NCBI GenBank assembly: GCA_011053055.1
Contig: DRHT01000052.1
Span: 1 to 64,000, forward strand
Source of the DNA: Halopseudomonas sabulinigri
Lineage (GTDB): Bacteria > Pseudomonadota > Gammaproteobacteria > Pseudomonadales > Pseudomonadaceae
DNA: 64,000 nucleotides
Direction of reading: 5' to 3'
The notes under the pieces are model-generated. The model made no database searches and was not told where the DNA came from. It saw only the letters and a program-made list of their open reading frames with translations. Each line of letters begins with the position of its first letter. Position 1 is the first letter of the stretch. This document shows, in pieces, positions 50,466-60,611 of the stretch. A program made the translations under genes and the position numbers.

Positions 50466-52195
50466 GCGCTGTAAACACCCCCCAACGTAGCGAATTGCTG
50501 GAGCACTTTCTGGCCCTGGTAGGGCAGCGTCACGTACTGACCGGCGACCAGCAGACCCGGCGGTTTCGCAAGGGTCATCGCACGGGTGAAGGGCAGGTAC
50601 TGGCGGTAGTACAACCCGGTACGCTGCTGGAGCAATGGAAGGTGTTAGAAGCCGCAGTCGCGGCCGATTGCATCGTCATCATGCAGGCCGCCAACACCGG
50701 CCTGACCGGCGGCTCCACGCCGGATGGCGACAACTACGAGCGCGATATTGTGCTGATCAGCACTCGGCGGTTGGATGGCGTGCAGCTGGTTAATCAGGGC
50801 GAGCAGGTGGTGTGTTTGCCCGGCGCCACGCTGGATCGGCTGGAACGGGAGCTGGCGCCGCTGGGCCGTGAACCGCATTCGGTGATTGGCTCCTCCTGCA
50901 TCGGCGCCTCGGTGCTCGGCGGCGTGTGTAATAACTCCGGCGGTGCTCTGGTACGCCGTGGCCCGGCGTACACCGAGCTGGCGCTCTATGCGCAGGTACA
51001 GGCCGATGGCAGCCTGACGCTGGTCAATCATCTGGGTATCGAGTTGGGCGACAGCCCGGAAGAGATTCTCACGCGTTTACAGAAAGGCGACTACAGCCCG
51101 GCAGCCGTGCGCAACGAGGCCGCTAGCGCCTCCGATGCGGGCTATGCCGAGCATGTGCGCGATGTGGATGCCGATACCCCGGCGCGTTTCAATGCCGATC
51201 CCTCGCGGTTGTTTGAAGCCTCGGGTTCCGCTGGCAAGCTCTGCCTGTTTGCCGTGCGGCTGGATACCTTCGTCAAGGAGTCCAGCACCGTGTTCTATAT
51301 TGGCAGTAACGATCCACAGGATCTGACCGACCTGCGCCGCTACCTGCTGACCAGTCTGCCGAGCCTGCCCATCGCCGGTGAGTACATCCATCGCACCGCC
51401 TTCGACATTGGCGAGCGCTACGGCAAGGACACCTATCTGGTTATCGACCGCTTTGGCACCGCACGGGTCCCCACCGCTTTTGCGCTCAAGAGCCGCGTCG
51501 ATGGGTTATTTGAACGTGTGGGATTGCGTGGCGTCAGCGACCGCATCATCCAGAAACTCATGGACCTGCTGCCCAGCCACCTGCCAGCGCGCATGCGCGA
51601 ATACCGCGACCGATACGAGCATCACCTGCTGCTGCGCGTCTCTAACGACACCGCCGAACAGACGCGCGAGCATCTCAAGGGCTTTTTCGCCGGACGTGAC
51701 AGTGGCAGTTACTTTGAGTGCGATGAAGACGAAGGCCGCCGCGCCTTTCTGCACCGCTTCGCCATCGCCGGCGCCGCTATCCGTTACCGCGAAGTGCACC
51801 GAAAAGACGTGGAAGACATAGTCGCACTCGACATCGCCCTGCGCCGCAACGACCGCGAGTGGGTAGAAACCCTGCCGCCCGAGCTGGAACAGGACATGGT
51901 GCACAAGCTGTATTACGGTCACTTCTTCTGCCACGTCTTCCATCAGGATTACATCGTGCGCAAAGGCGTCGACCCACTCGCCATGGAGCACCGCATGTGG
52001 GCGCTACTGGACGAGCGCCGCGCCGAATACCCCGCCGAACACAACGTCGGCCACCTCTACGTCGCCAAACCCGCGCTGGCCGACTTCTACCGCGAACTCG
52101 ACCCAACCAACAGCTTCAATCCGGGTATTGGCCATACGTCCCGACAGCGGGGCTGGGGTGAGTGTTGTGGTGGGCATGACGGGGAGGCGGGTTGA
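50462..52195 (+). CDS. dld: D-lactate dehydrogenase (quinone-dependent, FAD, membrane-associated)
   Basis: A 577-residue FAD enzyme of the Dld type (E. coli 571). The FAD loop [12 protein letters not shown] and [19 protein letters not shown] are present, followed by the membrane-binding region. It oxidises D-lactate to pyruvate. Overlap with lldD at ATGA 50462 shows translational coupling. The C-terminus ends GGHDGEAG. Beyond it the accessory segment starts. Confidence 0.93.
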
Positions 52196-52286
52196 GAGTT
52201 GTTGGTGCTTTAGGCGACGGCCCTGTTTTCTGTCTGCCCACATTAAAGATCGGCATGATCGGCTGAAAGAAATACGGTAAAGCTAT

Positions 52287-52316
52287 GTAAAATGTAGCCC
52301 AGGAGCTACATTTTAC
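52287..52316. promoter_or_regulatory. Perfect inverted repeat upstream of an XRE regulator
   Basis: GTAAAATGTAGC (52287-52298) and GCTACATTTTAC (52305-52316) are perfectly complementary around six bases. It lies 37 bases before the XRE gene start and looks like its autoregulatory operator, possibly overlapping the promoter. The stem could also form in RNA. Confidence 0.65.
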
Positions 52317-52352
52317 GGTCTATATCTATTTTTTGATGCTCAAGGGCTACAA

Positions 52353-52622
52353 ATGACAACCCTCTACGACGTTTCTGCAATGCTCAAACAGGCGCGACGC
52401 GATGCGAACCTAAGCCAGGAAGCTTTGGCCCGCAGTGCCGGCGTATCGCGTTCAACAGTGGCGCGTATGGAAACAATGGCCAAGGGCGATATGAGCGTTT
52501 CTGCTTTGGTTCGTTTGCTGGAAGCGGCCGGATGCGAACTGAAGCTCATCAAGATCGGCCATCAGCGTACGATTGAAGACATCCTTGAAGAGCAACGATC
52601 AGGGCAAGGCTACGCCAATTAG
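52353..52622 (+). CDS. XRE-type helix-turn-helix regulator (HipB/antitoxin-like)
   Basis: An 89-residue DNA-binding protein. The helix-turn-helix is clear: LSQEALARSAGVSRSTVARME (split: LSQEALARSAG, VSRSTVARME). The C-terminal half, SALVRLLEAAGCELKLIKIG, is like HipB- and HigA-type antitoxins. No hipA follows; the next gene encodes a Fic protein. A perfect inverted repeat lies upstream. It could repress itself, or be an antitoxin that has lost its toxin, or a partner of Fic. Confidence 0.82.
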   Translation: MTTLYDVSAMLKQARRDANLSQEALARSAGVSRSTVARMETMAKGDMSVSALVRLLEAAGCELKLIKIGHQRTIEDILEEQRSGQGYAN

Positions 52623-52626
52623 ACAG

Positions 52627-52703
52627 TGAGCCGAATAATCGGCATTATCAGCTCATGTAATGAGCCGAATAGATTCGCTAATCGGCTCACAGATGAGCGA
52701 ATC
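52627..52703. promoter_or_regulatory. Multi-half-site operator region of the Fic gene
   Basis: The half-site TGAGCCGAAT occurs at 52627-52636 and 52661-52670 on the top strand. A related inverted copy (ATTCGCTAATCGGCTCA, 52673-52689) and a TGAGCGAATC copy at 52694-52703 overlap the Fic start. Four related half-sites in 77 bases suggest cooperative binding, perhaps by the winged helix at the C-terminus of the Fic protein itself. Confidence 0.6.
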
Positions 52704-53856
52704 TATGACCGACCCTCTCTGGATCTGGCAGCAACCTGACTGGCCGCGCTTCACTTGGCAAGCTGAACCGCTTGCTCCGCTGCTGCGCGCCTGTACCCAG
52801 GCGCAAGGTCGGCTGATCGGCATGCTTGGTGCTGTCGGCAATGACACAGAAGCGCAAAGCAGCCTCGATGCCATGCTGCAGAACATCGTTACCTCATCCG
52901 CTATCGAAGGCGAACAGCTGAATGTCGGCTCAGTACGCTCCTCTCTGGCAAAGCGACTGGGAGTAAGCGAGGAGGGCCGAACCACTGCGCGCTCAGAAGG
53001 CTTGGCGCAATTGCTGCTCGACGCCACGCAGGCACATCAGCAGCCATTAGACCTGGAGCGGCTATACGCTTGGCACCGCTGGTTATTCCCGGACGACGAC
53101 AGCCTTATTGCACGTCCGCTGCTCATTGGCGCGCTGCGTGGTGATGAGCCCATGCAGGTTGTTTCCGGGCGTCTCGACCGCCCCACCGTGCACTTTGAAG
53201 CGCCACCCCGCGCCGGGCTTGAACAGCAACTGGCCGATTTTCTGGATTGGTTCGAGCGCAGCCGCAGCGACGCCAGCCTCGACCCCTTGCTACGCGCCGG
53301 CATCGCCCATTTCTGGTTCGTAACCCTGCATCCCTTCGATGACGGTAACGGCAGGCTTACCCGCGCCATAACCGATCTGGCATTGGCTCAGGGAGAGCAT
53401 CAAACCATCCGTTTTTACGCCATGTCTGCCAGCATCCTCGACGACCGCGCCGGTTATTACCGCATCCTGGAGGCCAGCCAGAAAGGCCCGCTGGGTATCA
53501 CCGCCTGGCTGCAGTGGTTTCTCGCTACGCTGCTCAATAGCCTGGAGCAGGCACTGGCGCGCATTGACCGCGTGCTGATCAAAGCGCGCTTCTGGCAGAC
53601 GTATCGCAGCCAAACCTTTAGCGCCGAGCAGACCAAAGTACTGAACCGCCTACTTGATGGAGGCGAACGCGGTTTTGAGGCAGGTATCAGTGCTGCTCAA
53701 TATCAGGCCGTAGCCAAGGTATCCAAAGCAACAGCCACTCGCCACCTCAGCGACCTTGTAGCGAAAGGCTGCATCATCCGACTGCCTGGAGGTGGGCGCA
53801 GTACACGCTATCAGGTGAATAACGCAGGCAATGCTGCAACCTACAGTGCTCCATGA
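52693..53856 (+). CDS. Fic family AMP-transferase with DUF4172 N-terminus and C-terminal winged helix (class II)
   Basis: A 387-residue protein. The DUF4172-like start has WIWQQPDWPRFTW. The inhibitory motif (S/T)xxxE(G/N) is SSAIEG at 68-73, in front of the Fic core, so this is a class II autoinhibited protein. The active site HPFDDGNGR (213-221) is canonical. The C-terminal 70 residues look like a winged helix (ATATRHLSDLVAKG). It may AMPylate a host protein and bind its own promoter. The start is chosen at ATG 52693; 52660 would run through the repeat array, and 52705 is also possible. No good ribosome site is seen, so it may be leaderless. Confidence 0.85.
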   Translation: MSESMTDPLWIWQQPDWPRFTWQAEPLAPLLRACTQAQGRLIGMLGAVGNDTEAQSSLDAMLQNIVTSSAIEGEQLNVGSVRSSLAKRLGVSEEGRTTARSEGLAQLLLDATQAHQQPLDLERLYAWHRWLFPDDDSLIARPLLIGALRGDEPMQVVSGRLDRPTVHFEAPPRAGLEQQLADFLDWFERSRSDASLDPLLRAGIAHFWFVTLHPFDDGNGRLTRAITDLALAQGEHQTIRFYAMSASILDDRAGYYRILEASQKGPLGITAWLQWFLATLLNSLEQALARIDRVLIKARFWQTYRSQTFSAEQTKVLNRLLDGGERGFEAGISAAQYQAVAKVSKATATRHLSDLVAKGCIIRLPGGGRSTRYQVNNAGNAATYSAP

Positions 53857-53991
53857 CGTGGCCTCATGGCTAATGGCCGCAATATTATCGTGCTATCAAA
53901 CTAAATTTAGGTACTATCCAGTTAAACCGGGTTCGTAAAATTAGGCCATGCAACTCAGGCCAGTTGACTCAGAATAACGGAAGGACAGGAA

Positions 53992-54762
53992 ATGGATTTC
54001 TCTCCCATCATCGCGCCGCTATGGGGCATGCTCGGCTGGCTTATTCCGCTGATGTTCCTAGCCGGCCTGCTCAAGTCGCCTTGGTTCAAGGGCTATATCG
54101 GTGAGCTGCTGGTGCGGCTATTCGCACATTGGCAGTTGGATAAGCAGGTCTACCGCCGCCTGCATAACGTCACCCTGAATACCCCAGACGGCACCACGCA
54201 GATCGACCACGTTTTTCTCTCGCCCTATGGCATCTTCGTGCTGGAAACGAAGAACATGAGCGGCTGGATTTTTGGCAGCGAAAAACAGGCCCAGTGGACG
54301 CAGAAGCTCTACAAGCGCAGCTTCAAATTCCAAAACCCGCTGCGGCAAAACTACAAACACCTCAAAGCGATGGAAGCCACGCTGGGCCTCAACCCCCAGC
54401 ACCTGCACTCGGTGATTACCTTTGTTGGCGGCAGCACCTTCAAAACCGAGCTGCCCGCCAACGTGACCCAGGGCATCGGATTTATCCGCTATATCAAATC
54501 ATTCCAGCAACGCGTGTTCAGCGAGGCGGAAGTCGCAGCCATGCTCAAATCCCTTCAAACCGGCCGCCTTGCACCCAGCCTGGCCACGCACCGCGAGCAT
54601 GTGCAAAACCTCAAGCGTCGAAATGATCCGACAGCGGAGCGGCAATGTCCGAAGTGTGGCAGTGCTTTGTTGATTCGGACTGTGAAGTCAGGGGCGAAAG
54701 CTGGGCAGCAGTTTTGGGGGTGTTCGGCGTTTCCGAAGTGCCGAATGATGCAAAGCCTTTAA
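53992..54762 (+). CDS. NERD-domain protein with C-terminal zinc ribbon
   Basis: A 256-residue protein anchored by an N-terminal hydrophobic segment (LIPLMFLAGLL). The NERD (nuclease-related) domain covers about 35-150, with GELLVRLF, IDHVFLSPYGIFVLETKN and the following Lys, similar to the PD-(D/E)XK core (Asp and ETK). The C-terminus is a topoisomerase-type zinc ribbon: CPKCGS, then CSAFPKC. Such proteins are common in accessory regions, and a DNA-binding nuclease role is likely but unproven. A typical GGAAGGACAGGAA site precedes ATG 53992. Confidence 0.8.
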   Translation: MDFSPIIAPLWGMLGWLIPLMFLAGLLKSPWFKGYIGELLVRLFAHWQLDKQVYRRLHNVTLNTPDGTTQIDHVFLSPYGIFVLETKNMSGWIFGSEKQAQWTQKLYKRSFKFQNPLRQNYKHLKAMEATLGLNPQHLHSVITFVGGSTFKTELPANVTQGIGFIRYIKSFQQRVFSEAEVAAMLKSLQTGRLAPSLATHREHVQNLKRRNDPTAERQCPKCGSALLIRTVKSGAKAGQQFWGCSAFPKCRMMQSL

Positions 54763-55136
54763 CATGCGGCCTCCATATCGAACCTGCGCGCGCTCAAAAG
54801 CCTGAGTCAGATAAGCATTTTATTGAGCGGGAAAACAATGAGGTTAGGAATCCAGTTTGACCAGTAAAAAAGCAGAAAATTAATGTTCATCTGCCCCCAA
54901 TTCCTTGCAGAACGCATCACGTCAGCCTTAAAACGATGCAGTTGGAATAGATGGCACCGTATTTTCCACATCTGCTTTAGTCACAACTGATTGTGATAGA
55001 TATCAAAGTTATGGGATTATTTGATCTACGTGGCTTCGATGTGTGTTGTGTGGGTTTTTATGTTGTGACGCACAAATGACAGGTCTCACGCGGCTGAACT
55101 GGCGATCAATGACTTCCGATGAATGGCGATTTCTCA
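54763..55136. other. Intergenic stretch at the edge of the AT-rich methyltransferase unit
   Basis: About 370 bases without a supported gene, changing to AT-rich composition from about 54,850. A sequence at 54993-55006, GTGAT-N4-ATCAA, resembles an Anr/FNR box and overlaps a weaker CRP-like TGTGA-N6-TCAAA. A TTGTG-ACG-CACAA palindrome is nearby around 55062. These may be the promoter region of the methyltransferase gene. Confidence 0.35.
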
Positions 55137-56162
55137 ATGACTTATGACTTAACTGCGCTAGATTTATTTTCTGGCTGCGGGGGCTTAACTCAAGGGCTAA
55201 AAAATGCTGGCTACAAGGTGATCGGCGCAGTAGAGATCAATGAAAAAGCGCGACATACCTATTCTTTGAATCATGGTGACGTTCCTCTGGTTGGTACGGA
55301 TATAAAGGGTGTGAACGCAGATGACCTGATGAGTTTATTAGGCATAAATGTAGGTGAGCTAGATTTGCTCGCAGGCTGTCCCCCATGCCAAGGTTTTTCG
55401 ACAATGCGTTCACGGAATGGACGCGAACCTGTAGCTGATGATCGAAATTTTCTTATAGACGAGTTCGCCAGAATCGCTTTCGCGACGATGCCTAAAATGA
55501 TAATGATGGAAAATGTTCCCTCGCTTGCAAAGTTTGAGCGTTTCACCGACTTTGTAGAGCGTCTTACTAAGGCCGGGTATACCGTAATACACAAGGTATT
55601 AGATGTCTCTAAGTTCGGTGTCCCTCAGCGGCGTAAGCGCTTGATTTTGTCCGCTAGTAGAGTTGGCGCCGCTGCATTGGCTGAAGATTTTTCTGGAAAA
55701 GTCACGGTAAGAGATACAATCGAACAGCTACCGCAAGCTGGAACTAGCGGAGATTCTGCACATGACTACTCATCTCCTAGGCGAAGCGAAAAGGTAAAAG
55801 CTCTTATTGCAGCTATTCCAAAAGATGGTGGTAGTAGGGATAGCTTACCGATGGAGATGCGCCTCAAATGTCACTTGAGAACGAATGGCTTCAATGATGT
55901 GTACGGAAGAATGCGGTGGGATGAAATATCTCCAACAATTACAAGCGGTTGTATAAATCCTTCTAAAGGCCGCTTCTTGCATCCAGAAGAAGATAGGCCT
56001 ATAACCCTTAGAGAGGCGGCCTTGTTACAAGGTTTTCCAGTTACGTACAAGTTTGATATTTCACATGGTAAAGAAGCAATCAGTTTAATGATTGGCAATG
56101 CTCTTCCGCCTCCGTTTATTGCAGCTCATGGAAGAGCGATGGCGAAGATGTTAATGCGATGA
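55137..56162 (+). CDS. DNA (cytosine-5-)-methyltransferase
   Basis: A 341-residue C5-cytosine methyltransferase. Motif I is LDLFSGCGGL (9-18), motif IV is the catalytic AGCPPCQGFS (Cys84), motif VI is MMENVP (Glu125), motif VIII is PQRRKRL, motif IX is REAALLQGFP and motif X is IGNALPPP. All are intact, so it should be active. Its target-recognition region is unremarkable and the recognised sequence is unknown. ATG 55137 is preferred because motif I lies about nine residues in, as usual; an ATG at 55119 is possible and neither has a good ribosome site. It overlaps the next gene by four bases, in an AT-rich unit unlike its surroundings. Confidence 0.93.
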   Translation: MTYDLTALDLFSGCGGLTQGLKNAGYKVIGAVEINEKARHTYSLNHGDVPLVGTDIKGVNADDLMSLLGINVGELDLLAGCPPCQGFSTMRSRNGREPVADDRNFLIDEFARIAFATMPKMIMMENVPSLAKFERFTDFVERLTKAGYTVIHKVLDVSKFGVPQRRKRLILSASRVGAAALAEDFSGKVTVRDTIEQLPQAGTSGDSAHDYSSPRRSEKVKALIAAIPKDGGSRDSLPMEMRLKCHLRTNGFNDVYGRMRWDEISPTITSGCINPSKGRFLHPEEDRPITLREAALLQGFPVTYKFDISHGKEAISLMIGNALPPPFIAAHGRAMAKMLMR

Positions 56163-57907
56163 GTAAATCTCAAGAGCTTATCGGTCAGATTAAGAAAAGT
56201 TTTATTAACAAAGATTTTGACAAGTTTATCCATGAAATAAATTTCCCCAACTTTAAAAGTTTTGCGGCCAACACGAAAATTAAATTTAACTTTCCCGTTA
56301 CGGTGGTGGTCGGCCCAAACGGCGGAGGTAAAAGCTCGTTGCTCCAGGCTGCTTGGGGAATGCCGCTAAAATTTAGCACTTCGCGATTCTGGTTTTCTAC
56401 CCCAGTAGATCCGATAGGTTTTGGTAAGGGGCGGCAGAATAGATATTGGTACTCCCATTATATAAAAAATATCGACCAGACTGTTCAATGCCGCAAAATG
56501 AGCGGGCTTAAAAGGCACGGATATTGGGAGCCTACCCGACCTGCCCAAAAAGAAAATATGAGCAAAATGCCGCCAAAAACCGCGAAAAACATGGCATATA
56601 TGAGCGATACTGGGGATAGGTGGAGCCAGGTTGAACGCATACCGCATTATATTAATTCAAAGAACGACTCCAGCGCATTTGAAAGGTATTTTCACTCAGC
56701 CGAAAGTTCTACATTGGAAAAAAGACAAGACAGGTTTGTAAAGTATTCTCGTCAACTTAAAATTGCGATCGACACGAAAAGTCAAAAGCTTAGCTATTAT
56801 CGTAAGGAGCGGATTAAAGAAAATTTTGATATTAGCCCAGATAAGCTTTCTGCGATAAACTCTATTTTGCAAAAAAAGTATAAATCGGCCAGATATATCA
56901 ATCATTCACTGTATGATCGTAACTTCTCAGGCAGTGTTATATTTGAAACCGAGGAGCGAAGTTACTCGGAATGTTTTGCGGGAAGCGGAGAGTTGGCGGT
57001 GGTGAATTACGTTTTATCTCTCGGAAAGGTGAATAAATATGATTTGGTTCTTTTAGATGAGCCCGAAACATCGCTTCACCCAGGCGCACAGGCTAGGCTT
57101 CTAGAGTATATTTTAGAAATAACCAAGAAAAAGTATTTGCAAGTTATAATTTCATCGCATGCTCCAACCTTTGTTGAGTTGTTGCCAGCTGAAGCGCTGA
57201 TTGTTCTAGACGAAACTCCGGGCGGGGTTACGGCCAGAAATGAACCAACTAAAGCATCCGCGTTTCATCGATTAGGCCACATTGAAAGCAATAAGATCAC
57301 GCTGATTACAGAGGACGTTTTATTGGAGGCCTTAACTAAGAGGTCGTTGAAGTATATACCGATAGAGCTGAAAAGAAAGGTTGTGGTGGTCGCTGCTGAA
57401 GTAGGTGCGTCCGAGATGCTATCGAATCAGGCGCGAGCGTATGCGCAAGCCGAGGCTGCTGTGATAATGGTGCTTGACGGAGACCAGAGAAAGATTGGTG
57501 AAGTTATTGATCTGGATCCAGCGCTTCTGTCCCAGAAAGTGATCGAGGAGAGCGTTGCACTTTTAAAAGATAATAATGTCTCTATTGTGGGAACGCGTCA
57601 AGATTTGGGAAAATGGATAAGTTGGTGTAAAGGCCATGTTTTATTTATCGATGAAACTTGTCCGGAAGAAATATTTTTAGAGATTCTTAACTCCTCCCAC
57701 CCGCTCCTCAGTAATCCAAAAGCCACTAATGGTAAGTTCAAAGAGGCTGTGAGGAATGAACTTCATAAGATTAGTGCGCAAAGAACTCTCTCAGCTCAAG
57801 CGATTTTGTTTGACTATCTATTGGGTAAAGAATGCGAAGGCTCAAAAGTTGATAAAAAAATTAAGTCGCTTGCAACTAGCTTGGAAAAAAAATTAAAAAA
57901 ACTTTAA
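56159..57907 (+). CDS. OLD-like ATPase with TOPRIM-like C-terminal domain
   Basis: A 582-residue protein translationally coupled to the methyltransferase (ATGA at 56159). Walker A is GPNGGGKSS (52-60), the ABC-type signature is GSGEL (276-280), Walker B is LVLLDEPETSLHPG (296-309), and the switch histidine is in SSHAPT (334). The C-terminal half resembles an OLD-type TOPRIM domain: an acidic ITED (Glu385) and VMVLDGD (Asp440, Asp442). The long, Lys- and Tyr-rich insert at 110-260 is unusual. OLD nucleases take part in phage defence (OLD, Gabija, retron partners). Here the partner is a methyltransferase, so restriction or abortive infection is plausible, unproven. Confidence 0.8.
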   Translation: MSKSQELIGQIKKSFINKDFDKFIHEINFPNFKSFAANTKIKFNFPVTVVVGPNGGGKSSLLQAAWGMPLKFSTSRFWFSTPVDPIGFGKGRQNRYWYSHYIKNIDQTVQCRKMSGLKRHGYWEPTRPAQKENMSKMPPKTAKNMAYMSDTGDRWSQVERIPHYINSKNDSSAFERYFHSAESSTLEKRQDRFVKYSRQLKIAIDTKSQKLSYYRKERIKENFDISPDKLSAINSILQKKYKSARYINHSLYDRNFSGSVIFETEERSYSECFAGSGELAVVNYVLSLGKVNKYDLVLLDEPETSLHPGAQARLLEYILEITKKKYLQVIISSHAPTFVELLPAEALIVLDETPGGVTARNEPTKASAFHRLGHIESNKITLITEDVLLEALTKRSLKYIPIELKRKVVVVAAEVGASEMLSNQARAYAQAEAAVIMVLDGDQRKIGEVIDLDPALLSQKVIEESVALLKDNNVSIVGTRQDLGKWISWCKGHVLFIDETCPEEIFLEILNSSHPLLSNPKATNGKFKEAVRNELHKISAQRTLSAQAILFDYLLGKECEGSKVDKKIKSLATSLEKKLKKL

Positions 57908-58320
57908 AGGGTTGGTTGATAGAGGATTTTACTAGCGCCCGGAATTAAGTTTCATGTGGATGGGCGATGCGTTTTATTAAAGTTAGATGGGTTGCTCATC
58001 CTACTTTAGAGCTATTGCTAAAGCTTGGCTGCGAGAGATCGGCAATTTTCTAGGAAAACGGCCGCTCGAAAGTTGCCAGTTCAATGTGTCAGATTGCTAG
58101 GTCTTAATCGTTTGCAGACCCCGAATTAGCACTGCAGAATTTTATTACCCGGATTACGCTCATATCCACATATAGCGTTGAGTACCGATAGGCGCCTCAA
58201 CTTCAGCCAATTATGCTTGTCCATCCTACGCTACGCTCGACTTTATCCCGCATACAGCGCCTCTAGGCATGCAGTAATCCTCTCGCTCTTAGCACCGTAC
58301 GTTAACTTGGTTTTGCTTCC
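57908..58320. repeat. Non-coding spacer with degenerate intergenic repeats
   Basis: No supported gene in about 400 bases. Between 57958-57971 and 57986-58001 lie imperfect inverted copies of GGATGgGC...GATGGGTTGCTCATCC. A related CCATCCTACGCTACG occurs near 58214-58228. Such GGATGGG/CCATCCTACG elements recur in pseudomonad intergenic regions, so I take this as a decayed repeat cluster at the right end of the accessory segment. Confidence 0.4.
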
Positions 58321-58983
58321 TCAATCCTCCCACTGCGCATCCCGCCGGGTAATACAAGCCGCCAACAACGCCTCCAACGACGCCTGCAACTCCTGCATAA
58401 ATACATTACTGTCCTCACCCGGAGTCAGCGCTTCACCAATCACCACATCACAGTTGAACGGCACCAGCATGGATTCGCCTTTGGGCAGAGCGCGGCCGAG
58501 GCCGTGCATGGCGATGGGGGTGACGGTGGTGCCGGGGTGGCTGCGGGCTAGGTGGTAGATGCCTTTGCGCAGTGGTTGCAGTTGTTCGGCTTCGCCGCGG
58601 CTGCCTTCAGGGAAGAGCAGCAGGATTTCTTCGTTGGCGAGTGCCTGTTGGCAGAGGTCAAACACCTTTTCCTTGTCGACCTGGCTTTGCCGGTCGAGCG
58701 GGATGATGCCGATGACGTTGAGCGATAGCCAGGCGGTAAAACGGTTGCGCAGGAAGTAGTCGGCGGCGGCGACCGGGCGTACGCGGTGCAACTGGCTGAG
58801 CGGGTAGAGCGCCATCAGCACCAGTGTATCTAGGTGGCTGTTGTGGTTGGCTGCGAGGATCGCCGGCCCGCGTGCGGGCAGGCGCTGTACGGAGTAAATG
58901 TTGAGCCCCAGCAGCAGATACACCACGGGTTTGACGATCAGCATAAAAAACAGCCGCTTAGGCAGACGCTTAAAAAATGACAT
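58321..58983 (-). CDS. 1-acylglycerol-3-phosphate acyltransferase-like protein (PlsC family)
   Basis: A 220-residue acyltransferase. Motif I is NHNSHLD (NHx4D type), and motif III is LLFPEGSRGE. It probably uses acyl-CoA or acyl-ACP to acylate a lysolipid at the membrane; an N-terminal hydrophobic segment is present (FFMLIVKPVVYLLLG). ATG 58983 with GAGG upstream is preferred over the frame start at 59010, which overlaps cdsA-like coding. It lies last in a four-gene phospholipid operon and precedes the accessory region boundary. Confidence 0.87.
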   Translation of the reverse strand: MSFFKRLPKRLFFMLIVKPVVYLLLGLNIYSVQRLPARGPAILAANHNSHLDTLVLMALYPLSQLHRVRPVAAADYFLRNRFTAWLSLNVIGIIPLDRQSQVDKEKVFDLCQQALANEEILLLFPEGSRGEAEQLQPLRKGIYHLARSHPGTTVTPIAMHGLGRALPKGESMLVPFNCDVVIGEALTPGEDSNVFMQELQASLEALLAACITRRDAQWED

Positions 58984-58990
58984 GGCGGCC

Positions 58991-59947
58991 TCAGTAGCTG
59001 GTGTAAACAAGAAAGTGGAAGAACAGCGGCGCGGTGTACATCAGGCTGTCGATACGGTCGAGAATACCGCCGTGGCCGGGAATCAGCTGGCTGGTGTCCT
59101 TGATGCGCAGGTCACGCTTGACCGCAGAGATGGTCAGATCGCCGATAAAGCCCGCGATGCCGATCAGCAGGCCGGCGGCCAGCCCCTGCCAGAAACTCAG
59201 TGGCGTGAGCCAGGGTGCGAGCATGCCGCCCAGCAGCGTGGTGGTGGCTACGCCGCCAAGAAAACCAGCCCAGGTTTTGTTGGGGCTGATGGTGGGCACT
59301 ATCTTGCGCTCGCCAAACTTCTTACCCCAGATGTACTGCGCTACATCGTTGAACTGGGTGAGGAAGACCAGATACAGCACCAGACCGACGCCGCCACCGG
59401 ACGCATTTTGATCGGCTGGCAGCATCAGCAGATAGGCCACGTGGCTGATGGCGAATACGGTGGTCATGATTGCCCATTGGTAGGAGCCCACCGCGCGGAT
59501 AAAGCCCTTGGTTTCGCCCAGCATCAGCAGGCCGAAGGGGATCAGCAGGAACAGGTACACCGGAATAAACACGATGAACATGCCGTACCAGTCGGTGGCA
59601 ATCCAGTAATACTGCAGCGGCACCATCAGGTAGAGCGCGAGGATCAGGCGGCGGTCGGTGATGCGTACGGGCAAGATCGAGAATATTTCCCGCAGCGCAA
59701 TAAAGCTGAGTAAGGCGAAGAAAATCAGCGAGGCGACCTGGCCAATCATCAGTGCGGTAAACACCACCGCGACCATGACCCACCAGGAGTTAATGCGCTG
59801 TTTGAGTTCCAGATGCGCTTCCGGGCTGAGGCGTGAGCGCAGGCGCCACTGGGTGATGGAGGCCACCACTAGCATTGCCAGCACTACCAGCATGGCCCCA
59901 AGTGCATTGGGGGTGAGGTCGAGCATAAAGGCCAGGCCGATATCCAT
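58991..59947 (-). CDS. CdsA-like phosphatidate cytidylyltransferase
   Basis: A 318-residue membrane protein with about eight helices. It ends with the CTP-transferase signature SAVKRDLRIKDTSQLIPGHGG and the DRIDSL segment, the CdsA diagnostic. It makes CDP-diacylglycerol from phosphatidate and CTP. This is a second, non-essential-type copy: essential cdsA is normally beside bamA/uppS. ATG 59947 has GTGGAG nine bases upstream. It directly precedes the acyltransferase gene (7-base gap) and follows the CDP-alcohol phosphotransferase (1-base gap). Confidence 0.92.
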   Translation of the reverse strand: MDIGLAFMLDLTPNALGAMLVVLAMLVVASITQWRLRSRLSPEAHLELKQRINSWWVMVAVVFTALMIGQVASLIFFALLSFIALREIFSILPVRITDRRLILALYLMVPLQYYWIATDWYGMFIVFIPVYLFLLIPFGLLMLGETKGFIRAVGSYQWAIMTTVFAISHVAYLLMLPADQNASGGGVGLVLYLVFLTQFNDVAQYIWGKKFGERKIVPTISPNKTWAGFLGGVATTTLLGGMLAPWLTPLSFWQGLAAGLLIGIAGFIGDLTISAVKRDLRIKDTSQLIPGHGGILDRIDSLMYTAPLFFHFLVYTSY

Positions 59948-59948
59948 C

Positions 59949-60611
59949 TTAGTTGGCTCCACGTTGTTGCAGGCGCAGATAGGCGCCAATCAGGCGGCGC
60001 ATCGCGGTCATCGCGCTACCCACCACCAGCAGGATCAGGCTGATCCAGAGCACCATGCCGTAGTGCCCCCAGAAGATTTCCAATGCGCTAATCACCGCAG
60101 CCACGGTGATCAGCGCCATGCGTTGCTGCTTGGCCATCGGGCCGCGAAAATCTGCGGGCAGGCCGAGCGAGACGCCCAGCACGCGGATATAAGCCGTCAT
60201 GACCGCCAGCAAGGCGCCGAGCCAGGCAAGCCACATGGCGCTAGGGTAATCTGGCAGCGCAAAGCCGCAGGCGATGATCAGCAACGGATCGGCTATGCGG
60301 TCAGGCACATCGTTGAACAGCTCGCCGGCCAGCGTTTGCTTGCCACCTTCCATCGCGACCATGCCATCGAACAGGTTGCACAGCAGGCGCAATTGAATCA
60401 GCAGCGCAGCGGCCAGAAACCACAGTGAGCGCTCACCCGCTAGCGCCTGCCCGGCCATCACCAGCGCAGCGCCGCCGCCCAGGGCAAAGACCACACTGAG
60501 CACCGATATCTGGTTGGGCGTGACACTGCGGCGACTGAGCCAGGCTGCGAAGCGTCGCATCAGTTGCTGATCGCGAATCTTCAAGGGGCGGCGGTTGCTG
60601 AGGTCGGTCAT
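59949..60611 (-). CDS. CDP-alcohol phosphatidyltransferase family protein
   Basis: A 220-residue membrane enzyme. The catalytic motif DG-x2-A-R-x8-G-x3-D-x3-D reads DGMVAM...GELFNDVPD, so the conserved Arg is Met and one of the Asp positions is Asn, with a neighbouring Asp. It probably transfers a phosphatidyl group from CDP-DAG to an alcohol, but the altered residues suggest a special subfamily, or reduced activity. It sits in an operon with a CdsA-like enzyme that makes its donor and an acyltransferase. Confidence 0.83.
   Translation of the reverse strand: MTDLSNRRPLKIRDQQLMRRFAAWLSRRSVTPNQISVLSVVFALGGGAALVMAGQALAGERSLWFLAAALLIQLRLLCNLFDGMVAMEGGKQTLAGELFNDVPDRIADPLLIIACGFALPDYPSAMWLAWLGALLAVMTAYIRVLGVSLGLPADFRGPMAKQQRMALITVAAVISALEIFWGHYGMVLWISLILLVVGSAMTAMRRLIGAYLRLQQRGAN

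Follow-up and report, generated by a model that had tools for sequence, protein, structure and literature searches.

We describe here a two-gene locus in a window of 64,000 nucleotides, which is the whole stretch of DNA that was analysed (positions 1 to 64,000 of contig DRHT01000052.1, assembly GCA_011053055.1, from Halopseudomonas sabulinigri). The locus joins a gene for a C5-cytosine DNA methyltransferase (MTase) to a gene for an OLD-type protein. This mobile two-gene system is real, and although rare it is widespread. On balance we lean to the view that this mobile pair is an ATP-dependent restriction-modification-like defence system with the OLD nuclease as its restriction arm. This view is built on gene content, linkage, partner exchange, conserved active-site-type residues and predicted fold; the methylation target, the cutting of DNA and its inhibition by methylation are what we infer from sequence. 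The positions of the pair and of the main parts of the MTase gene are as follows.

54756..58318, no strand given: stretch with the pair, lying between the NERD gene and the plsC-like gene (sister-genome comparison)
55119, plus strand: possible alternative ATG start of the MTase gene, 18 bases upstream
55137..56162, plus strand: C5-cytosine DNA MTase gene, 341 aa (intact open reading frame, Pfam, PADLOC)
55386..55388, plus strand: codon of the catalytic Cys84, in PPCQ (sequence)
55641..56000, plus strand: target-recognition region, residues 169-288, between motifs VIII and IX (alignment)
56159..56162, plus strand: ATGA overlap, with the MTase stop TGA at 56160-56162 and the OLD start ATG at 56159-56161 (sequence)
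56159..57907, plus strand: OLD-type protein gene, 582 aa, with an ABC ATPase and a C-terminal TOPRIM-like and helical region (intact open reading frame, Pfam, predicted structure)

Linkage of the OLD clade with C5 methyltransferases

Conservation of the pairing was set beforehand as one test of what the initial annotation proposed, and the pairing was found to be conserved. A C5 MTase gene lies within 100 bp of the OLD gene in 43 of the 47 listed clade loci, which were ascertained by the OLD protein (33 of the 36 first loci, nine of the ten from the second viral scan, plus L251). Three more loci (L135, L142 and L307) have it in the same gene cluster, not within 100 bp. At L149 the contig starts 140 bp before the OLD gene, and no MTase end is seen in those 140 bp. 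The pairing is more than chance, as it recurs far beyond this genome.

Linked loci were not the starting point of the search: the bait alignment A1 combined the window OLD protein with six homologues of 20-25% identity, none of them adjacent to an MTase, although L018 has a C5 MTase 0.6-0.9 kb away. Single-protein scans with the window OLD protein gave no relative in viral or genome contigs, and the window MTase alone as query gave none in viral contigs. A1 then retrieved the clade, with eight relatives in viral contigs (over ~500 residues, 33-39% identity, E ≤4e-79) and at least 28 in genome contigs (E ≤3e-45), the latter being a lower bound as that scan covers the best 80 of 289 relatives. 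The clade was cut at the gap in E-values, from 4e-79 to 1e-20 in viral contigs and from 3e-45 to 7e-21 in genome contigs. Ten more loci (E ≤5e-54) came from rescanning the viral contigs with the clade profile A2, the weak new loci L317-L319 being left out of the clade. The A2 genome search added one new locus, L251, and G946 is the contig of L133. The clade total is at least 47 loci, in 43 clusters at 90% identity.

The control was 124 more distant loci from both A1 scans (72 viral and 52 genome, the latter within the best 80 of 289), of which 119 gave an OLD open reading frame (ORF) match and the five without match were dropped. No C5 MTase gene was adjacent in any of these 119 distant homologues, and one of them, L116, had such a gene 3.9 kb off. 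This control includes weak matches (down to E 4e-5), and some of its stretches are short at contig ends. In 12 further distant loci outside the 119 (L009-L020), a C5 MTase was found within the fetched stretches only at L018. An MTase was scored as present on a blastp match to the window MTase (E 1e-6) or to a set of three MTases (E 1e-12). An MTase that is divergent or not of C5 type would escape this criterion, at clade and control loci alike.

The order of the two genes is variable. Among 33 codirectional pairs the MTase gene comes first in 17 and the OLD gene in 16, and convergent pairs (L251, L313, L315 and L316) form a third arrangement; in L151 and L152 the OLD gene is split by a frameshift. 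Adjacent pairs were found in eight phyla as read from record titles, several being metagenome bins: Pseudomonadota, Bacteroidota, Bacillota, Actinomycetota, Planctomycetota, Cyanobacteriota, Gemmatimonadota and Myxococcota. For 32 pairs including that of the window, MTase and OLD distances were correlated (r 0.72; 0 of 5000 permutations as high), which shared descent alone can give. At L047 the OLD protein shares 67-68% identity with its counterparts in L048 and L146, whereas the MTase shares just 51-53% with theirs and the gene order is reversed, which suggests that partners were swapped within the clade. We compared 258 flanking ORFs (≥80 aa, within 4 kb, 34 loci) all-against-all for a recurrent third gene, and no family occurred in more than four loci.

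Features of the two proteins

The MTase matched Pfam DNA_methylase (PF00145) at E 1.2e-57 over residues 6-335, and in PADLOC it matched DruM2 (E 8.3e-80) and MTase_II (E 1.7e-79). Its motifs PPCQ, ENVP and QRR are unchanged across 14 aligned sequences. With the DNA_methylase domain, the PCQ/ENV/QRR motifs and a target-recognition region, it is a C5 MTase by sequence features. The gene is intact with the cysteine at residue 84, and it overlaps the OLD gene by four bases (ATGA), both as the initial annotation had said.

The OLD protein carries the Pfam AAA_21/AAA_15 ATPase domains. The following motifs were located in it, with counts from 35 aligned clade members.

56312..56338, plus strand: Walker A, residues 52-60, with Lys58 (G52, N54, G55 and K58 in 35/35)
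56978..56992, plus strand: ABC signature-like AGSGE, residues 274-278 (A274, G275, G277 and E278 in 35/35)
57041..57067, plus strand: Walker B, residues 295-303 (D300, E301, P302 and E303 in 35/35)
57311..57316, plus strand: TOPRIM glutamate E385 with D386 (both 35/35)
57476..57484, plus strand: TOPRIM DxD, D440-G441-D442 (35/35)
57665..57667, plus strand: E503, candidate counterpart of the Bp OLD metal-B ligand E508 by inferred equivalence (E in 32, D in 3)
57740..57742, plus strand: K528, candidate counterpart of Bp OLD K562 by inferred equivalence (35/35)

Signature position 276 is S in 32 members and T in 3, the H-loop histidine H334 is invariant, and TOPRIM G416 is present in 34 of the 35. 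The key residues of Walker B, the ABC-like signature and Asp440/Asp442, all of which had been predicted, are thus invariant in 35/35. The Walker A motif is likewise present in 35/35, but its lysine is Lys58 and not Lys59 as first numbered.

The active site of Bp OLD includes E400, E404, D455, D457, T506, E508 and K562 (PMC6755086). In the window protein the distance from the glutamate to the first aspartate of DxD is 55 residues, as for E400-D455 in Bp OLD (PMC6755086). The glutamate, DxD, E/D503 and K528 of the clade fit the Bp OLD pattern by order only, and no counterpart of T506 was identified in the aligned clade.

An AlphaFold2 model of the OLD protein reached a pLDDT of 89.1, and the best PDB match of the whole model was the Ts OLD nuclease (6p74, E 1.9e-11). 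For the C-terminal model, the five best PDB matches were the solved OLD C-terminal regions (prob 0.97-1.00, E 3.5e-3 to 2.1e-2), and the next match was RadA (E 6.3e-2). A structure search in BFVD gave eight matches at E ≤0.001, AAA/ABC-type or unnamed, and no clear full-length relative among them. The predicted TOPRIM assignment of the C-terminus is well supported but not beyond doubt, because the residues are invariant and the OLD regions come first among structural matches, but those matches are weak and no sequence match accompanies them. The TOPRIM-like C-terminus of the initial annotation therefore stands for its motifs and its top structural matches, and falls short of significance in both structure and sequence searches.

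In the trees the branch of the window MTase is ordinary (0.64, with a median end branch of 0.64), and that of the window OLD protein is unusually long (2.51 versus a median end branch of 0.62).

Partner exchange and possible function

The MTase lineage of the window is also found with other partners. On a Pantoea plasmid (L030), an MTase 54% identical to that of the window is followed by an overlapping gene for a GHKL ATPase (HATPase_c_3 E 7e-24; PADLOC REase_II E 3.2e-49), and the GHKL partners of L030, L033 (B. glumae) and L035 (C. coli) match PADLOC REase_II models at E 1.2e-58 to 7.9e-38. The target-recognition region is 50-66% identical to that of the window in 22 OLD-linked core members, 57% in the GHKL-linked L030 and 17-44% in the remaining rows. 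Because L030 is as close in this region as the OLD-linked members, one MTase lineage carries either a putative OLD arm or a putative GHKL arm, and its members probably share one target. More distant MTases (~34-43% identity) lie beside GHKL, DUF262 + HEPN or DrmD-type genes, these partners being partly judged by size and order only. For the plasmid of Campylobacter coli with the MTase-GHKL pair L035 (138-2118), the record predicts resistance genes for aminoglycosides and Cfr(C) a few kb away from the pair.

The core MTase alignment A4, used as query against the viral contigs, found 39 loci at ≥48% identity, which form 28 clusters at 90%. The partner within 100 bp was GHKL in 17, OLD in 13, and other or none in nine. 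The nine include the HEF_HK type (L269, L299), a related HATPase type (L266, L286), UvrD/PD-(D/E)XK (L260, L281) and contig edges (L257, L306); at L277 an OLD fragment is found 721 bp from the MTase. When 41 core MTases are placed in a tree, the OLD label has to change at least five times, and starred branches force three of these changes; this count omits L257, L277 and L306, and the UvrD label of L260 is unsure as the contig ends just upstream of its MTase. These partners suggest that one MTase lineage has been joined to unrelated ATPase arms (OLD, GHKL, HEF_HK with a response regulator, and perhaps UvrD/PD-(D/E)XK), and for this reason restriction-modification looks modular.

OLD proteins are divided into Classes 1 to 3, namely solitary, Gabija and retron (PMC10568477), and the window pair fits none of them. 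Class 1, a single isolated gene, was rejected as the OLD gene adjoins the MTase gene. Class 2 or Gabija, with an adjacent UvrD/PcrA/Rep-like helicase, was rejected as the neighbours in the window are MTase, NERD and acyltransferase genes. Class 3, the retron type, was rejected as there is no reverse transcriptase among the seven window proteins scanned and no Rfam match at gathering score in 52000-60000. The window protein resembles Class 1 (P2 Old, Ts OLD) and Class 2 (GajA, Bp OLD) in having an ABC ATPase followed by a TOPRIM-like/helical region, in the pattern of Glu, DxD and lysine, and in its first PDB matches. It differs from them in the C5 MTase partner, in a 'VED' without an acidic residue four places on, and in a C-terminal part without sequence-level match.

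The best PADLOC model for the window OLD protein is HEC-04 (E 5e-34), whose members are solitary AAA-ATPases with the same motif order. Membership was rejected, as the best-matching stretch is residues 189-446 against model positions 128-381 of 494. In four homologues that lack an adjacent MTase the HEC-04 match extends over most of the protein (150-171 bits), whereas in the window protein and six other clade proteins (five MTase-adjacent, and L135) it lies mainly in the middle (106-147 bits). PARIS (AriA/AriB) likewise has an OLD-type ABC ATPase with a TOPRIM nuclease, but in two polypeptides and without MTase; it was rejected because AriB is a separate TOPRIM protein and here the TOPRIM-like part is within the same polypeptide, beside an MTase. 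The candidate system Hma is an operon of helicase, m5C methyltransferase and ATPase (PMC8565338). By description the window pair is like it in the last two components, and Hma was rejected as no helicase lies beside the pair.

Plasmid pP62BP1 has two near-identical restriction-modification systems, of which R-M1 lies beside a MutL-like ORF and R-M2 beside the OLD/SMC-like ORF27 (PMC3346939). In R-M2 this ATPase of 619 aa stands next to a C5 MTase and a restriction endonuclease, which is similar to our pair; unlike in the window, the endonuclease is of PD-(D/E)XK type, and ORF27 is likened by description, its authors assigning it no function in the account of PMC3346939. The MTase-GHKL pairs of L030, L033 and L035 have their partner in the same position, but the partner in the window is an OLD ABC ATPase with TOPRIM; MORC and paraMORC proteins also occur with methylases (PMC2292703). 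Clusters of HEF_HK, Response_reg_2 and C5 methylase are known (PMC8011034), and MTases of the same clade stand beside HEF_HK at L269 and L299 and beside the related HATPase protein at L266 and L286, but the window pair has no adjacent HEF_HK or response-regulator gene. The initial annotation named no characterised system of these two components. This agrees with the partial HEC-04 match and with the titles and abstract starts of the open-licence papers listed, in which no MTase-OLD two-gene system was described, though an earlier neighbourhood survey may list it.

In the favoured reading, the C5 MTase would mark a short target on host DNA, and the OLD gene stands in the position that other ATPase restriction arms have in the close relatives of the MTase. 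The ATPase dimer may scan or clamp DNA and license the TOPRIM site, which would then nick or degrade DNA without the mark, such as entering phage DNA. Host methylation might keep the OLD protein off, directly or via the MTase. The initial annotation had suggested the same division of labour, in which methylation may protect self and the OLD protein may attack unmodified DNA. A broader proposal has a little less than an even chance in our judgement: that the pair represents a restriction-modification class with an ABC-ATPase-driven OLD-family TOPRIM nuclease and C5 methylation as self mark, outside Classes 1-3 and swapping with GHKL (MutL/MORC-like) arms. According to the abstract of PMC12407980, it is unknown how Gabija tells invader from host DNA. 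The MTase-tied clade would offer a concrete answer for self/non-self recognition by OLD nucleases, namely a methyl mark, and it adds a group beyond the three classes of PMC10568477.

Several observations weigh against this reading. The position of the Bp OLD metal-B ligand E404 is A in 31, L in 3 and V in 1 of the 35 sequences. Several PtuA, Rad50 and SMC ATPases come close to 6p74 in score when the whole model is searched, and the structural matches of the C-terminal model are all short of E 0.001, with TM-scores of 0.29-0.36. Neither Pfam nor the PDB gave a significant sequence match for the C-terminal part, and a DNA-recognition domain was not identified in the OLD protein. At the viral loci with the closest MTases, GHKL partners are more frequent than OLD partners (17 to 13), the count by cluster being 9 to 11 or 12. 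Furthermore, another possible restriction arm or helicase accompanies OLD in L135, L142, L307, L134, L047, L126 and L127, and OLD may thus be accessory.

These loci are quite different from each other. In L135 (5603-9713, Echinicola pacifica) genes for a C5 MTase, R.HpaII (RE_HpaII E 4.4e-135) and OLD are in a contiguous row. In L142 (7953-15449, Flavobacteriales bin) and L307 (5968-13343, viral contig) the OLD gene lies tail to tail with an operon of MTase, HEF_HK and response regulator. A UvrD/PD-(D/E)XK gene overlaps the MTase gene in L047 (8855-11791) and L126 (10794-13697), with the OLD gene on the other side; the UvrD copy of L126 was compared with the PADLOC GajB models only. The same type of gene overlaps or closely follows the MTase gene in L260 (1074-3980) and L281 (7001-10189). 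In L127 (2666-5083) a UvrD/GajB-like gene is found 187 bp upstream of the OLD gene of an MTase-linked pair, so this locus is a possible bridge to Gabija. In L134 a GHKL gene matching the REase_II model is beside the pair.

The main rival, though unlikely in our estimate, is that the OLD protein is a guard or back-up arm, which would be blind to methylation, watch the MTase or another restriction system and respond to a phage inhibitor with abortive infection via its TOPRIM nuclease, as in PARIS. The restriction-type systems beside OLD in L135, L142 and L307 speak for it, and OLD-ABC modules are reported as back-up effectors of BREX, with AriA detecting the anti-restriction protein Ocr (PMC12839542). 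But most of the 34 mapped loci with a full OLD gene show no known restriction gene beside the pair, most neighbours being unnamed. A guard would also not require such a close tie to a C5 MTase, and PARIS has a separate TOPRIM protein.

We regard it as improbable that the pair is mainly an addiction module, in which OLD would attack any unmarked DNA and kill cells that lose the prophage or island, with defence as a secondary effect. It would agree with the prophage and island locations, and with the MTase in the cluster for 46 of the 47 listed clade OLD genes, the remaining one being at a contig end; sequence alone cannot separate it from restriction-modification. More doubtful still is a modification-dependent arm, in which OLD, like Mrr or McrBC, would target DNA whose cytosine modification is foreign or misplaced, the MTase having a role of its own. 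The sister genome G688 does have an Mrr gene at the same site, but a C5 MTase next to a 5mC-dependent nuclease would expose the cell's own DNA to attack unless the two have different sites, and Pfam shows no modified-base reader domain in the OLD protein. That the two genes have unrelated functions and are merely co-inherited is hardly credible: both do travel as prophage or island cargo, but re-pairing is seen in three arrangements, across different MTase groups and eight phyla, and none of the 119 control loci has the two adjacent.

Neighbouring genes and insertion site

The pair is inserted DNA in a variable site. Genome G668 of the same genus (locus L236) has 118 bp in place of 54756-58318, and genome G688, also of this genus (locus L235), has an Mrr restriction gene at the site of the pair (Mrr_cat E 1.3e-37). 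As had been stated from the sequence at first, the pair is AT-rich and unlike its flanks: GC content is 0.453 for the MTase gene and 0.415 for the OLD gene (third codon positions 0.39 and 0.42), below that of the neighbouring NERD, Fic, lldD and dld genes (0.564-0.626).

A search of 36 other genomes of the genus gave no match to the OLD protein at E 1e-10. The clade is rare, since profile A2 at E 1e-40 was found in one of 369 genomes of the class, which is the window's own, and in three of 398 genomes of the phylum, the window's own included. By tblastn the window OLD protein hit 12 plasmid records, all with less than 80% coverage, and nothing among phage records; E. coli genomes contained no match to the window DNA. 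The OLD proteins of L135, L046 and L134 against plasmids, and that of L046 against phages, gave no record covering 80%.

In the window the pair is flanked by the NERD gene and an acyltransferase gene. The ORF list has no ORF of ≥80 aa starting between the NERD gene and the MTase gene, and a small regulator gene there was rejected on this ground. Consensus promoters and terminators scored no higher than in shuffled sequence. Pfam gave no restriction enzyme among the seven window proteins scanned, and the OLD gene occupies that place.

At the other clade loci, neighbours of defence and prophage type are found. A large protein beside the pair in L131 (4172-7852) matches PADLOC CARF6/STK/AAA with 1358.8 bits and has a homologue in L146 (11037-14777); a neighbour in L137 matches PDC-S41. 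In L144 (6896-11044, Streptococcus sp.) a second C5 MTase gene (406 aa) follows the OLD gene, which gives the order MTase-OLD-MTase. The prophage-type neighbours are a CI-like repressor (L046), an anti-repressor (L051), an O-like replication protein (L049) and an integrase with a tail fibre (L052). Among ten scanned neighbours seven had a PHROG match (E 1e-5), and a PADLOC match (E 1e-10) was obtained for six and none for four; these neighbours were chosen by eye and give examples of context, not an enrichment statistic. A defence context is therefore borne out by chosen examples of defence-type neighbours, but not by statistics.

Upstream of the pair, the window has a helix-turn-helix (HTH) gene and a Fic/DUF4172 gene (52353-53856), and G688 has an HTH gene followed by a HipA gene (L235, 2830-4532). 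Because G688 has HipA in place of the Fic gene of the window, the HTH/Fic position also looks variable.

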